A DNA stretch of 45,467 nucleotides. Source: Chthonomonadia bacterium. GTDB taxonomy: Bacteria > Armatimonadota > HRBIN16. The DNA lies in contig JABUFA010000030.1 of NCBI GenBank assembly GCA_013314755.1, forward strand, positions 1 to 45,467, written 5' to 3'. The position numbers and the translations under genes were made by a program. Below, in pieces: positions 1-43,684 of the stretch. Within the stretch, counting starts at the first letter, position 1. Each line of letters opens with the position of its first letter. The notes below the pieces were generated by a model that saw only the letters and a program-made list of their open reading frames with translations, searched no databases and was not told the DNA's origin.

Positions 1-284
1 CTCCCCGACGCGGGGAGAGGAGAGGCTCCCCTTCCCTCGCAGGGAAGGGGACGGGGGTTAGGTTGACAACAGCTCGGCGGGAGCCTGTGAAACCCCTCTC
101 CCAGCCTCTCCCCGACGCGGGGAGAGGTGAATCTCCCCTTCCCTCGCAGGGAAGGGGCTGGGGTTTAGGTTGACAACGGTTCGGCGGGAGCCTGTGAAAC
201 CCCTCTCCCGACCTCTCCCCGACGCGGGGAGAGGTGAATCTCCCCTTCCCTCGCAGGGAAGGGGACGGGGGTTAGGTGTCCTAC
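1..284. repeat. 107-bp tandem repeat of a double-hairpin element
   Basis: The motif CTCCCCGACGCGGGGAG begins at 1, 108 and 215, an exact 107-base period. Each unit contains two GC-rich hairpins. The first has CCTCTCCCC/GGGGAGAGG arms and the second has CCCCTTCCCT/AGGGAAGGGG arms around CGC. A GGGGTTAGGTT tail and a CGGCGGGAGCCTGTGAAA linker follow. The third unit diverges near 277. Single copies of the double hairpin recur near 11930-12005 and 36550-36610. Open reading frames here run through repeats on both strands and look non-coding. The array may extend beyond the left edge of the window. Confidence 0.85.
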
Positions 285-487
285 AAACACGGGGCGGCGG
301 GAGCCTCGCCCTCCAAAGAATGTTGTAGGGGCAACCCCCCTGTGGTTGCCCGATGACGTGGAACAGCCCCACCTGACATTCCCGCGGACGGGGAGGGCGT
401 GTCCCCCTGCTTGCGGGGGGACGACAGGGGGGCTGACAGAAGAGACCGTCCCCCTGCTTGCGGGGGGGACTACAGGGGGGGCTGACA
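285..487. repeat. Mosaic of dispersed intergenic repeat modules
   Basis: No gene is evident here. The stretch is a patchwork of modules seen elsewhere in the window. CGGCGGGAGCCTCGCCCTCC lies at about 295 and recurs at 10174, 11899 and 12018 with small changes. GGGGCAACCCCC..GGTTGCCC lies at 325-352 and recurs at about 9980 and 10243. GTCCCCCTGCTTGCGGGGGGAC lies at 401 and 448 and recurs at 10042 and 36492. Each module is an inverted repeat that can fold. Function is unknown. The block sits downstream of the antiporter gene, which ends at 504 on the minus strand. Confidence 0.75.
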
Positions 488-9956: not shown

Positions 9957-10290
9957 CAATACCAGCTGGCGAGTCGTCCGTAGGGGCACCCCCCTGTGGT
10001 TGCCCCCGACACAGAACAACCCCATCTGACCTCCCTGCAACGTCCCCCTGCTTGCGGGGGGACTACAGGGGGCTGATAACGCCTGAAAAAGCCCTCACCC
10101 TGCCCCTCTCCCACGAGGAGAGGGCAAACAGATCCACCTAACCTCCCCGCAGGCGGGAAGGCATTCAACAGCTCGGCGGGAGCCTCGCCCTCCAGGAAGG
10201 TGCGTCTGCGATTTGGAGGGCGAACCTCCCGGTGAGCCGACCGTAGGGGCAACCCCTTGTGGTTGCCCACTTTGTTCCATCCCCATGACG
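9957..10290. repeat. Mosaic of dispersed hairpin repeats
   Basis: No gene is supported between 9957 and 10324. The DNA holds GGGGCACCCCCC..GGTTGCCC (about 9980-10006), GTCCCCCTGCTTGCGGGGGGAC (10042-10063), CCTCTCCCACGAGGAGAGG (near 10107), CCTCCCCGCAGGCGGGAAGG (near 10142), CGGCGGGAGCCTCGCCCTCC (10174) and GGGGCAACCCC..GGTTGCCC (10243-10268). These are the same modules as at 285-487 in another order. Confidence 0.75.
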
Positions 10291-10297
10291 GCTGGAG

Positions 10298-10303
10298 TAT
10301 AAT
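10298..10303 (+). promoter_or_regulatory. -10 box of the rtcB gene
   Basis: TATAAT lies 22 bases upstream of the ATG at 10325, directly after the repeat block. The -35 region (TTCCAT at 10275 with a 17-base spacer) is poor. Confidence 0.45.
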
Positions 10304-10324
10304 ATCCTTCGGGAGGTGAAGGCG

Positions 10325-11794: not shown

Positions 11795-11869
11795 TAACCC
11801 GGATTGGCGCGGGACATCCCGCTCCGCCCTGAGATGATAGCGGCATCACTGTTGTCCTGTTGTAAGCCC

Positions 11870-12040
11870 TCACCCACGAGGCGAGCGGAGAGACGGCTCG
11901 GCGGGAGCCTCGCCCTCTAGGGAAGAAAACCCCTCTCCCTGCCTCTCCCCGACGCGGGGAGAGGTGAGGCTCCCCTTCCCTCGCAGGGAAGGGGCTGGGG
12001 GTTAGGTTCAAACGGCTCGACGGGAGCCTCGCCCTCCACA
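11870..12040. repeat. Dispersed double-hairpin element between convergent genes
   Basis: The spacer between rtcB and the ADP-ribosylglycohydrolase gene holds two copies of the CGGCGGGAGCCTCGCCCTC-type module (11899 and 12018, the second with GACGGG). They flank one copy of the double hairpin (CCTCTCCCCGACGCGGGGAGAGG, then CCCCTTCCCTCGCAGGGAAGGGG). The arrangement copies the unit at 108-214. Its hairpins could end transcription from both sides, but no U-tract follows. Confidence 0.75.
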
Positions 12041-12043
12041 GGT

Positions 12044-13519
12044 TTACTTCTCGCAGATACACGCCTCCACGCGGGCATGACATTTCGGGCAGGTGGGCAC
12101 GTTCACGCCTGCAGGATAGCCTTTTGCCTCGCCCGGTCCCAGCATGGTGAACTCCGCGTTCAAAATCTGCCCGTCCAGCATGGCGGTCACGGCGATGGTA
12201 TTGCGGTCAGCCACCTCGTCAGCATACAGCGCAAAGCGGTGCTGTGCCAGCTTCTCGCCCAGAGGCTGTACGCGCCATCCTGACGGAACCCGAATATTGA
12301 CCGTTGCAGACACGGGCACGTCGTCCTTCTTCACGGAGACGCCGACCACTTTTTCGATGCCCGGACGCAACACGGGCTCGCCGCCATAGTGCAGAGCCAC
12401 ATCGTAGCCCTGCATGGTAATGATGGCGGACTGTGGGTCTCGGCTCAGTGCCAGCGAGGCACGTTCGTTGCGGAACAGCAGGGAAAGCAGGTTGTTGGGC
12501 AGGGCAGTCCGCTCGCCCAGTTCCACACTGTCCGAACGCTCCTTCACCATCTTCAGCGCGACCTCGGTGGTGCGCTCGGTCAGCTCGGCGACCGTCTTGG
12601 GGGCGTTTAATCCGCGCGTGTAGGGATGCAGGACGATGGTGTCGCCGATGGGGTCAATCCACTCTTGCGGGATGCCCTTGGTGCCGTTGATGATTCCCAG
12701 CACCGAGCCGAGCGTTGCACCCGTGCAGTCGGTGTCGTAGCCGCAGTTGACCGCCGTGCACAGTTTGTCGCCGTAGTCCTTGCCGTAAAGCCAGCCCAGC
12801 ACGGTGAAACCGTGATTTTGCACAGCGTGACAGGGCTGATTGTGCCCGAAGTTGAACAGGATGCGTTCGCGTGCCTCCTGCCAGCTCAAGCCGTTGTCGT
12901 AGCACCATACCGCCTCGCGAATGACCCGTGAGATTCGGCACCAGACGGGTATCATTGATAGCCCGATGCGAATGAGCGTATGGGGGTCGGAGAGCACGAA
13001 AGCTGCGCTTTCCACCGCAGCCCAGAACATCTCGCCGTATGTGCCCTCGCCACCTGCGTGGTCAAGCGCGGAGTCCAGCCACGCTAAGGACGCAGCCAGC
13101 TGCGGGTCGCCCGGAGCCACGCACGCCCAGATTTCACTGCGGATTGGCGAACCCATCTCGTCGATGTAGTAGTTTTCAAAACAGCCCGAGATGGGCGGGC
13201 GCAAGCCGCGTGCCAGGTTTCGCTGGCAGAAGCCATATTCGTTCCACGGATAGGGCGCCAGGTGTTTCGTCCAGTAGTCCGCGAAATCGCTGAGGGTGGG
13301 ATATATTCCCCGCTCACGCAGCATCTCCAGCCAGACCAGTTGAAGGTCCAGGTCATCGTTGGCGGAGGCTTTGTCCGGCACGGGGTCGTAGAAGGTGAGG
13401 GAGTGCAGCTTCTTCTGCCCCTCGTAGGGTGCGCCAAGCGTTCCCCCGATGTTCTTGCCTAACCAGCAGGCATAGACCTTATCGCGATACTCTTCCAGAC
13501 TAATCTGTATCGGTTTCAT
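12044..13519 (-). CDS. ADP-ribosylglycohydrolase family protein with C-terminal zinc-ribbon-like tail
   Basis: The protein has 491 residues. Residues 10-335 match the ADP-ribosyl-glycohydrolase (ARH/DraG) fold. The metal-binding acidic residues are visible in SANDDLDLQLVWL (N54, D55, D56, D58) and CGYDTDCTGATLGSVLG (D262, D264), and GGEGTYGEMF lies at 156-165. Residues of about 345-470 form a beta-rich domain. The last residues, CPKCHARVEACIC, form a Cys-rich motif. Such enzymes remove ADP-ribose from proteins or small molecules, but many members act on other substrates and this one could be catabolic. AAGGAG precedes ATG 13519. It is monocistronic. No ADP-ribosyltransferase gene is visible nearby. 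Confidence 0.85.
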   Translation of the reverse strand: MKPIQISLEEYRDKVYACWLGKNIGGTLGAPYEGQKKLHSLTFYDPVPDKASANDDLDLQLVWLEMLRERGIYPTLSDFADYWTKHLAPYPWNEYGFCQRNLARGLRPPISGCFENYYIDEMGSPIRSEIWACVAPGDPQLAASLAWLDSALDHAGGEGTYGEMFWAAVESAAFVLSDPHTLIRIGLSMIPVWCRISRVIREAVWCYDNGLSWQEARERILFNFGHNQPCHAVQNHGFTVLGWLYGKDYGDKLCTAVNCGYDTDCTGATLGSVLGIINGTKGIPQEWIDPIGDTIVLHPYTRGLNAPKTVAELTERTTEVALKMVKERSDSVELGERTALPNNLLSLLFRNERASLALSRDPQSAIITMQGYDVALHYGGEPVLRPGIEKVVGVSVKKDDVPVSATVNIRVPSGWRVQPLGEKLAQHRFALYADEVADRNTIAVTAMLDGQILNAEFTMLGPGEAKGYPAGVNVPTCPKCHARVEACICEK

Positions 13520-28242: not shown

Positions 28243-29010
28243 CTACTCCCTCTGGCAGAACCAGTTGTACCGGCTGGACTCCGATTCGGTGATGGGTATC
28301 TTCCAGCAGAACAGGTCATCGGGCACGCTTTCGGGGCAGTTCCAGATGACGGGAGGCTGACTGGCTTTAATCCATTTTGAGTGCCCATCAAAGAACAGAA
28401 ACACCGCCCCGCCATTGTGTACGATGGATGGACAATCGGCACTCACGGGATGAAACGCGCCGTCGTTCAGCGTAATCTGTTCGTCAATCAGCAGGGCAAG
28501 GCGGGCAGGGCGCTCTACCGCCGTTTCGGGAATAAAGGCAAGCCCAGCATTCATCGAGTAGCTCAGTAGTTTCTCCTCGCGCGGGTCGGACGGGCACACG
28601 TACAACCCGGCGTTCCTGACATAGGGATAGAGCACTCCGCTGACCGGTCCCTTGACCGCCAGCCATTCGGGGTTGACCGGCGCGGTAGTCTCCTGTCCAA
28701 CAGGCACTGCGTAGATACAGGGAACCCACTGTGCACCCGAGTTCCACGGGAAGCCGCGCATCCACTCGGGCCACACACCATCTACCCAGCCGCCCATGCA
28801 GCTACCGTCACCGTTACCCGCGTTGCGCCCATCGTGGTCCGTGCGATACATCACCAGTGCCAGTCCCAGCTGGCGTAGGTGTGCCAGACAGGTGGTTTGC
28901 CTTGCCTTCTCGCGTGCCTGTGCGAACACGGGGAACAGAATCGCTGCCAGTATCGCGATAATCGCGATGACCACCAGCAGCTCAATCAGGGTAAATGCCC
29001 GGCGAGACAT
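28243..29010 (-). CDS. Prepilin with H-X9-DG C-terminal domain
   Basis: This 255-residue pseudopilin-like protein has a short leader [14 protein letters not shown] with a type IV prepilin peptidase site before F6. The hydrophobic helix that follows, to about residue 25, continues into [12 protein letters not shown]. The C-terminal part carries the [16 protein letters not shown] motif (H-X9-DG) of DUF1559-type proteins. It is exported and may be part of a pseudopilus or anchored at the envelope. The AGGAGGG ribosome site and the leader support ATG 29010. Close relatives occur in many copies in Armatimonadota and Planctomycetota genomes. A second copy is at 42869. Confidence 0.9.
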
Positions 29011-36435: not shown

Positions 36436-36440
36436 GGGCA

Positions 36441-36612
36441 GAGAGAGGACAGCCCCACCTAACCTCCCCGCAGGCGGGGAGGGACTTGTGTGTCCCCCTG
36501 TTTGCGGGGGGACTACAGGGAGGCTGACAACCTCTAACAAGCACCTGTCCGCCGGCGGGGAGAGGCGAGGCTCCCCTTCCCTCGCAGGGAAGGGGTTGGG
36601 GGTTAGGTTTAA
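36441..36612. repeat. Dispersed hairpin modules between pdhC and lexA
   Basis: CACCTAACCTCCCCGCAGGC-type hairpin at about 36455-36483 and GTCCCCCTGTTTGCGGGGGGAC at 36492-36513 are followed by a copy of the double-hairpin element (GGCGGGGAGAGG... CCCCTTCCCTCGCAGGGAAGGGG, 36555-36600) with its GGGGTTAGGTT tail. The order resembles 369-487 plus 1-60. Confidence 0.75.
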
Positions 36613-36653
36613 CTCGTGTCTAATCTGGTGAGCCAAAAAACATTCGGAAATCC

Positions 36654-36690
36654 TTGACAAGTAGACCAATTTTAGTATATACTTCGTATA
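36654..36690 (+). promoter_or_regulatory. lexA promoter with candidate LexA operator
   Basis: TTGACA (36654-36659) is followed by TATACT (36678-36683) with an 18-base spacer. Two overlapping palindromes cover the -10 region: AGTAT|ATACT at 36674-36683 and TATAC-TTC-GTATA at 36678-36690. Because lexA usually represses itself, these are candidates for the LexA box of this lineage. They do not match the Firmicutes/Actinobacteria GAAC-N4-GTTC box or the CTGT-N8-ACAG box. Confidence 0.55.
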
Positions 36691-36712
36691 GTATTTGGGG
36701 AGGAGGACAGCT

Positions 36713-42318: not shown

Positions 42319-42640
42319 ACCCTGCAACGGAAAGTTGCGGGCTACTCTTCTCTTTGGAGTGCTGAAGCTTGCTTCAGCAACCCCTTAACCTGCGCCAGCA
42401 GGTTTTGTCCTGTGTTGCCTGCGATTTTCAATCGCAAGGTTGCCTCAAAAACAACCCTGCAACTTCCAGTTGCAGGGTGGCTGAAGCATGGCTTCAGCAC
42501 TCCATAGACCTGCGCCAGCAGGTTTTGTCCTGTGTTGCCTGCGATTTTCAATCGCAAGGGCAGAATAAAAAAGCGGACTTGCTGAAGCATGGCTTCAGCA
42601 CTCCATATCTGCGGAGGGTAACCTGCAGGTTGCCTGCGAC
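42319..42640. repeat. Hairpin array with 120-base period
   Basis: A 52-base sequence starting ACCTGCGCCAGCAGG and ending TTTTCAATCGCAAGG is repeated exactly at 42388-42439 and 42508-42559. A second unit, GCTGAAGCATGGCTTCAGCA plus CTCCATA, occurs at 42480-42506 and 42581-42607, with a variant at about 42359-42380. Further stems are CCCTGCAACT-TCC-AGTTGCAGGG at 42455-42477, CCTGC..GCAGG and TGCGA..TCGCA. Frames read through it on both strands only because the repeat is free of stops. No gene is supported between 42247 and 42758. Confidence 0.85.
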
Positions 42641-42869: not shown

Positions 42870-43684
42870 TGAAGCAAAGAGGTTTTACGCTTATCGAATT
42901 GCTGGTGGTTATCGCGATTATCGCGATACTGGCAGCGATTCTGTTCCCAGTGTTCGCACAGGCACGCGAGCAGGCACGCCGCGCTACCTGCGTGAGCAAC
43001 CTGAAACAGCTGACCAACGCGTTCCTGATGTACGCCCAGGATTGGGACGAGCGATTCATGTCGCAGAACAACGCCGATGGTCCCAACTTCGATGACAACA
43101 CAGAGGCGCAGGTATTACTGCAGCCATACATTAAGAACCGCAACATCTTCTACTGCCCGTCGCGCAACAACTACAACTGTGTGCGATGGATAGACCCCTC
43201 AGGGCGATGTCTGGGCTATGCCCCAAACTTTGGGTTGTACTCTTACCTAAACGGACTGGGTATCTTTGAAGTGCCCATTACTCAGCCCGGTGTGCCCGGT
43301 CAGATATGGGTGGGGAAAACTCTCTCACAGATGGCACATCCTGCCCAGACCATCCTGCAGGGCGATACGAACGACTGCAACATGTATACCCTTTCCTTCT
43401 ACTTCCAAGACTGGGACGGGCGCACGAGCGCTGCCATCCGTCACAACCGAATGTACCAGTTCTCCTTCGTGGACGGACATGTGAAGAGCATGAAGATGGC
43501 GGCATATTCGTTCCTGGTGGATGGCGACTCGTTCACCATCATGCCGGAGAACGGCGAAAACATCAAGCTCTACTGCGCCGATGTCAACGAGATAAGCAAG
43601 CGCACGGGCAACTACTATGGCAGGGGATTGCCCTGTGGACAGATTGCCGAGAACATCGCGCGCGACCGCGTGCCACTACCGTAA
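42869..43684 (+). CDS. Prepilin with H-X9-DG C-terminal domain
   Basis: The 271-residue protein has the leader [14 protein letters not shown] with a prepilin peptidase site before F6. A hydrophobic N-terminal helix follows, then [23 protein letters not shown] and the C-terminal [16 protein letters not shown] motif (H-X9-DG). The N-terminal 30 residues are almost the same as in the prepilin at 28243-29010, while the rest differs strongly. It should be exported and processed as a pseudopilin or minor pilin. AAGGAGG precedes ATG 42869, and the leader-ORF stop overlaps it. It is followed by a small membrane protein gene. Confidence 0.92.

Follow-up and report, generated by a model that had tools for sequence, protein, structure and literature searches.

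What is the repeated DNA at the very start of this contig, and how did it come to be reiterated there? The window, that is, the whole stretch of 45,467 nucleotides analysed here, is the entire contig C6 of an 88-contig, 3.95-Mb genome of a Chthonomonadia bacterium (Armatimonadota), and the closest named relatives of a protein encoded in it come from Armatimonadetes MAGs and Bacterium HR16. The only array that TRF reports in the window occupies nt 1–277 of the plus strand, with a period of 107 bp, 2.6 copies and 92% matches. Identity at a lag of 107, taken in 150-nt stretches, reaches 0.93 at position 1 and never exceeds 0.38 past position 1000. The 107-bp period claimed in the preliminary description is therefore real, while its three repeats amount to 2.6 copies in the assembly, since the third copy is partial and the contig edge cuts the array. 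In the 107-bp register, copy 3 keeps its first ~63 bases; it is identical to copy 1 at 60 of 65 positions, and at 78 of 107 overall.

The period is the sum of a 79-bp A-B pair and a truncated G module (CAGCTCGGCGGGAGCCT), the latter forming the linker between units. The A-B core consists of two inverted hairpins, A and B, separated by a 7-nt spacer. Unit 1 (nt 1–63) has lost its 5′ end at the contig edge and retains the A hairpin, the 7-nt spacer, the B hairpin and the B tag. Unit 2 (nt 92–170) is 79 bp long and runs from ACC to GGT, and unit 3 (nt 199–277) has the same length. The two copies that had been described as single, near 11930 and 36550, are also found: one is intact in the spacer of two convergent genes (nt 11929–12007), and the other has a decayed A (left) half beside an intact B half (nt 36529–36610). 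All five units lie on the plus strand. Folding as DNA predicts two strong hairpins per strand (z of −5.6 and −4.8, with 0 of 200 shuffles as good), as expected from the two GC hairpins noticed earlier. In the predicted simple fold that ranks best for the paired unit, portions of both tags pair together.

Hairpin modules occupy four spacers of the window (nt 1–503, about 9957–10315, about 11795–12044 and about 36436–36694), in line with the earlier count of at least four. In the first, the array is followed by a REP-type G module (290–315, plus), whose family flanks a RAYT gene in the sister genome G001; by a D module (325–351, plus), a GTAG-tagged hairpin of the form GTAGGGGCAACC..GGTTGCCC; by an E module (362–395, plus), a single triplex-type hairpin with its tag, partly decayed; and by two triplex-type C modules (400–438 and 448–488, both minus), GTAG preceding the stem in most C copies. 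The second spacer holds D (9980–10006, plus), C (10042–10079, minus), F (10088–10124, plus), E (10127–10160, plus), G (10169–10194, plus), the G variant K (10214–10240, minus) and a further D (10243–10268, plus). G modules lie to the left (11893–11918, plus) and to the right (12013–12038, plus) of the single A-B unit in the third. In the fourth, E (36449–36481, plus) is the first module of a cluster inserted upstream of a lexA-like gene and is followed by C (36491–36530, minus). The modules were located by mismatch scans, because nhmmer with single seeds is too weak at 26 nt. Two further repeats of the window are recorded here in their own right: a 129-nt inverted repeat (28867–28995 and 42884–43012; 81% complementary) with a relative in L032 (4540–4677), and a 69-nt direct repeat (42371–42439 and 42491–42559; 93% identical, spacing 120), parts of which recur by eye in L008.

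Judged from its sequence, the array very probably arose by tandem amplification, at this site, of a 79-bp paired element that belongs to the BoxC/PIT/TM class of intrastrand triplexes. Each half, read along the purine strand, has a hairpin, then a short loop, then a purine tag mirroring the purine arm, with T allowed opposite an A of the arm. Purine-motif intrastrand triplexes obey this mirror-tag rule, and their ITxF class, as set out in the available text of PMC4666352, comprises a pyrimidine arm, a loop, a purine arm, a loop and an antiparallel third strand, with G-G-C and A/T-A-T triads and at most one mismatch. Each half would thus form a GC hairpin followed, after ~3 nt on the purine strand, by a purine tag able to fold antiparallel into the major groove, placing G on G-C and A or T on A-T. 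Since the halves are inverted with their tags outward, each DNA strand would carry one purine-type triplex. By sequence, the modules fall into the purine class of intrastrand triplexes, the consensus triads fitting at 9/9 for A, 9/10 for B, 7/8 for C, 7/8 for E and 9/9 for F (shuffled-tag p from 0.003 to 0.034 each, in registers chosen by eye). A family-blind triplex finder with an 8-nt stem returns 11 motifs in the window and 16 in 400 kb of this genome, against a single motif in order-2 Markov shuffles of equal length. The preliminary description had the structured, dispersed and amplified nature of the element right; it missed the unpaired tag as a mirror of the arm.

The mirror relation is maintained as sequences diverge. 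In a fixed register, the third-strand fit of tag to arm over 17 elements is 0.962 against 0.688 for permuted pairs (0/20000), although this permutation test and those below overstate independence because tag and arm share inheritance. When the register may vary in both real and permuted pairs, 18 hand-typed elements from Armatimonadota, Cyanobacteria, Enterobacter and Neisseria give a mirror fit of 0.959, while permuted pairs have a mean of 0.805 and a maximum of 0.894 (0/5000). Similarly, 48 distinct machine-parsed halves fit at 0.926 versus 0.845 when permuted (0/3000), and one half per arm class (16 halves) at 0.910 versus 0.811. Alternatively, the tag could be a direct repeat that serves an alternative hairpin. 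This was rejected, for the direct-repeat model does no better than permuted pairs in the 18 elements (0.784 against 0.790) or in the 48 halves (0.803 against 0.797). In alignment A3, which holds 23 hand-picked units from several phyla, sliding by 1–3 lowers the mirror fit of hairpin A from 0.961 to 0.646 or less, and that of hairpin B from 0.909 to 0.690 or less. The direct-repeat and slide controls share the same descent and yet fail, which argues that shared descent is not the whole cause.

The stems themselves co-vary. Standard pairs make up 95.6% of stem pairs, and 8 pairs show two-sided change, in 26 cells against 6.9 in shuffles (0/500); alignment A1, of lower diversity, gives a small signal with 5 two-sided cells. 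Conserved base pairing, named beforehand as a point on which the element would stand or fall, is thereby upheld by compensatory change. The A units of this genome join a stem CCTCTCCCC to a tag CCCCTCTCC, and in most sister units the two are exchanged (CCCCTCTCC with CCTCTCCCC or close to it), a coordinated flip within the genus.

The nearest known relatives are the BoxC/PIT/TM motifs, reported as abundant in Cyanobacteria and Enterobacteria (PMC4666352; Holder et al. 2015). Module F matches the strict TM_ECO (BoxC) pattern CCCTCNCCC N3-6 GGGNGAGGG N3 GGGNGAGGG with one mismatch, on the minus strand at nt 10092–10124, and 8 other copies in the genome do so with one mismatch each. Scanning with the strict pattern returned only F-type sequences, and A, B, C and E do not fit it. 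On sequence evidence, A and B are thus different sequences under the same structural rule as TM_ECO/BoxC. They share with these motifs, as far as the available text of PMC4666352 describes them, the C-rich arm, short loop, G-rich arm, second loop of ~3 nt and mirror third strand, as well as intergenic location, type A/type B inverted pairs and sites that vary between relatives. The A-B unit differs from TM_ECO in its fixed 79 bp, its 7-nt spacer, its tandem amplification, its occurrence in Armatimonadota and its carriage by a MITE in sister species. Moreover, tags point inward in the E. coli TM pairs, to go by the table positions in PMC4666352, whereas those of the A-B unit point outward. The same source, in the text available, reports no link of TM_ECO in E. 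coli to mobile elements, and describes a triplex that is stable in vitro and lacks in vivo protection in E. coli.

How widely is the unit spread in its own genome? With nt 1–321 as query, BLAST gives 164 matches in this genome at dozens of sites, so that the element is not limited to the window; this genome-wide count had been named beforehand as a test. A survey of the window, 30 BLAST-hit loci and 20 stretches of 20 kb yields 36 distinct A-B units, 34 of them with a spacer of exactly 7 nt, and nearly all start with ACC and end with GGT. Beyond these ends, in-register sharing between flanks is limited to single bases. The flanking target duplication that had been suggested as a further check does not appear: a flanking direct repeat of at least 6 is present in 0 of 37 units of this genome.

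Sites occupied here are often empty or otherwise filled in related genomes. The spacer at 36436–36643, between a 2-oxoacid dehydrogenase acyltransferase gene and the lexA-like gene, is 3–9 nt long in L032, L036 and L040; in L033, L034 and L035 it is filled by other modules or other sequence. For the other two spacers, relatives with both flanks on one contig were counted. The single A-B unit at nt 11929–12007 is absent from four of four (G001, G006, G007 and G009), where the spacer corresponding to nt 11795–12044 consists of 34–60 nt with a single hairpin. Similarly, the spacer corresponding to about 9957–10315 contains modules, by eye, in none of four relatives (121 nt in G008, 124 in G006, 325 in G002 and 1249 in G003). 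The array at the antiporter gene is seen in no relative, where the neighbouring gene may differ. These comparisons record presence and absence, and leave the direction of each change unproven. Nevertheless, genome-wide copies together with sites that are empty in relatives support the earlier proposal of a mobile or amplified structured element that is not a known insertion sequence. As a separate observation at the lexA-like gene (nt 36436–36710), 44 nt separate the end of the cluster's last intact module from the TTGACA of a strong predicted promoter.

One alternative is that the A-B unit is a REPIN, i.e. a pair of inverted REPs that a RAYT (Y1) transposase mobilises in trans in single-stranded form. 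The inverted pair with outward tags, the sharp ends and the lack of target duplication in all 37 units are what such an element would present. Of 36 A-B units, 18 have a G or K module no more than 60 nt to the left and 22 have one no more than 60 nt to the right, against 0 of 400 random 60-mers. G, K and D are REP-type repeats and not triplex-type. The G family flanks RAYT in G001 on both sides with 1 and 0 mismatches (L115: 1388–1413 and 1912–1937, either side of the RAYT frame 1435–1902), a second, degraded RAYT of G009 is flanked by G with 3 and 5 mismatches, and D lies inside the RAYT reading frame of G007 with 0 mismatches (L116 1691–1716). The module C carries GTAG before its stem and could therefore be a RAYT REP. 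REP, REPIN and BIME elements (Di Nocera et al. 2013, PMC3733652, in the text available) are likewise short palindromes that occur as inverted dimers, in clusters and in tandem reiteration with flanking DNA; G, K and D belong to this class, as do the H hairpins described below. The RAYT-like genes of G007, G001 and G009 (L116, L118 and L119) also have GTAG-type or similar hairpins inside the frame.

The A and B hairpins, in contrast, depart from REPs. No GTAG or CGTC tag stands at their foot, where tag and loop read CCCCTCTCCCGA and ACCTAACCCCCAG. The genome has one RAYT (NCBIfam NF047646, 104.9 bits; L031/L112, G000:C57:70315-70719), and it is flanked by ten hairpins GCGGAAGC..GCTTCCGC of the unrelated H family, split six to four between its two sides. 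At 37 RAYT loci in the phylum, none of A, B, C, E or F adjoins the gene, and the sole triplex motif there is 1.3 kb off. At E 1e-10, RAYT is found in 161 of 291 genomes of the phylum, in 66 of the 104 with A-B versus 95 of the 187 others, a weak association (p 0.049); at the same threshold it is missing from 13 of 29 heavy A-B carriers, including G002, G006 and G008, which are 98–100% complete. RAYT as the mover of A and B is therefore unsupported by the 0 of 37 flanked loci, and the REPIN reading as a whole is unlikely. The suggestion to look for a RAYT-type transposase thus held for G and D, which flank or lie within RAYT genes of sister genomes, and failed for A and B.

Another alternative starts from the sister species, where the A-B unit is found inside a transposable element. 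In G007 it sits in a 186-bp element (L186), which occurs at 31 places in G005 among the matches listed and at additional sites in G002 and G006. The element has inverted ends GAGGGTG..CACCCTC and a duplication of at least 9 nt in 12 of 13 copies, exact in a fixed 9-bp register in 20 of 35, and its site in G007 is empty in G002. With inverted ends and target site duplication it is a MITE like others in bacteria, present in G005, G002, G006 and G007 with A-B inside. We infer that it is of the DDE type because of the inverted ends, the 9-bp duplications and the empty site. No transposase was found for the MITE; a reading frame beside one G005 copy resembles a transposase start, but Pfam yields no match to a transposase. 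By analogy, the A-B units of the present genome might be decayed MITEs of this kind, given the same pair inside the same ends with 9-bp duplications in four sister genomes. However, they end sharply in ACC...GGT against dissimilar flanks, and have neither inverted MITE ends nor duplications. The MITE end string was found at two places in the DNA of this genome examined, neither with A-B nearby, and 9 of 11 inspected A-B units of relatives lack it in the 110 nt upstream. A decayed-MITE origin is accordingly very unlikely. Two further repeats accompany the MITE in sister genomes: one of ~200 bp that adjoins it in L186 (1685–1888) and occurs at many places in G002, and a G005 element of ~292 bp (L301 1849–2140) that shares the GAGGGTGTTC..GAACACCCTC ends and lies next to another MITE copy.

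The MITE is placed with respect to promoters. Scored out of 12 for TTGACA, 16–18 nt and TATAAT, a sigma70 promoter pointing away from the MITE reaches at least 9 in 27 of 35 copies (L281-L294 and L313-L331 of G005, G002 and G006; L186), and the best-scoring −35 starts 8–9 nt from the MITE end in 28 of 35. Of 2000 positions drawn at random from a small and mostly coding pool, 0.55% attain this score; the own-genome A-B units, which serve as the intergenic control, do so in 1 of 37. Promoter adjacency as a trait of A-B itself is rejected by this difference (1/37 versus 27/35). In 12 of 12 cases the empty site already has the promoter. Either targeting or selection may account for the position of the MITE beside −35 boxes. 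Such a fixed placement appears unusual among bacterial MITEs.

Could the hairpins instead act as RNA, as terminators, mRNA stabilisers or small RNA selected at gene ends? Their stems are conserved, and their location agrees: by a simple gene finder over 445 kb, 88% of it coding, A (9/9), B (8/8), C (5/5) and F (4/4) copies all lie outside predicted genes (26/26 together), with 6/7 for E and 69/73 for all modules, so that the claim of a strictly intergenic element is borne out for A, B, C and F and nearly so for the whole set. Nevertheless, convergent spacers are not enriched (2/15 versus 27/198), and the orientation of spacers with modules (9 tandem, 4 divergent, 2 convergent) is unremarkable beside that of all spacers (126, 45 and 27). 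Rfam gives no match, no T run follows the hairpins, and the sites are empty in close relatives. The mirror code would be meaningless for RNA pairing, and purine triplexes do not form in RNA, nor is terminator or promoter activity cited, according to the available text of PMC4666352. An RNA role has a very small probability. That the array is an assembly artefact deserves next to no credence, for in spite of its position at a contig edge and an identical overlap in which the start of C6 repeats the 124 nt that end the reversed start of C66, its copies differ among themselves and arrays with other hit spacings exist inside long contigs, such as those of 125 nt in C66 and 93 nt in G005, a 7-contig assembly. 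Further arrays have hits 108 nt apart in G001, 98 in G005 contig 2 and 86 in G004. Both the cut at the C6 edge and the overlap make the true copy number uncertain, and the array probably continues past that edge into C66.

The paired-triplex amplification reading can be laid out as a sequence of steps. On strand separation, the folded unit would stall polymerases; slippage, or unequal exchange between neighbouring copies, would then generate arrays whose period is that of the unit plus the local linker. In sister species the A-B unit would spread as cargo of the DDE-type MITE, while in this genome it stands free amid the RAYT-type REPs G, K and D, without target duplication. What the sequences establish directly is the mirror code, which co-varies in different families and phyla, the conserved stems, the sharp ACC...GGT ends, the intergenic location, the presence or absence of units at given sites, and the recurrence of tandem arrays with site-specific periods.

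The unit is not confined to one lineage. A covariance model of A-B finds it in all 10 genomes searched in the genus and in 104 of 291 of the phylum, at most 15 places being scored per genome. In other phyla it is detected in 5 of 38 genomes at lower scores (48 bits and below). On plasmids, the window query matches A-B in 2 records, and a Calothrix copy as query matches 6, its own record included, all of them cyanobacterial. F-type single elements are more widespread, occurring in 59 plasmid records, mostly of Enterobacteriaceae and Rhizobium, and in 3956 of 5426 E. coli genomes. A paired triplex unit also lies on a viral contig (L171 3361–3440); phage records gave no match to the A-B unit. In a Bacteroidetes MAG (G294), a paired triplex unit is enclosed by a 165-bp segment whose inverted ends read CGAG(A/C)CTGTGTGAAAAT, at L303 and L308, the two copies having opposite orientation and similar flanks.

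Bacterial triplex-forming repeats have been noticed for decades. No publication on the A-B unit appeared among the matches listed for PIT elements, mirror repeats with MITEs, Armatimonadetes repeats and promoter-adjacent MITEs, and the main text of PMC4666352 has 0 mentions of 'Armatimonad'. That the array is a tandemly amplified form of the BoxC/PIT/TM motif, with paired units at fixed spacing and RAYT-linked REPs interspersed, has good support from the sequence. A fixed paired unit with many diverged copies offers a natural co-variation test of the third strand, and the sister-species MITE provides one concrete route of spread for triplex-forming repeats.

Our study raises a more far-reaching idea, which we put forward tentatively as possible rather than probable: the paired triplex unit may be a self-standing mobile module with one triplex per strand, which crosses phyla, enters unrelated carriers and sets a structure that stalls polymerases at a constant distance from the −35 boxes downstream of it. 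If so, REP clusters would be its carriers in this genome; in the sister species the carrier would be a MITE with a transposase that finds sigma70 promoters by their upstream edge. On this view, co-variation of the three strands would be evidence from nature that not just the hairpin but the triplex itself is kept, and MITE insertion beside promoters could link triplex structure to gene control.
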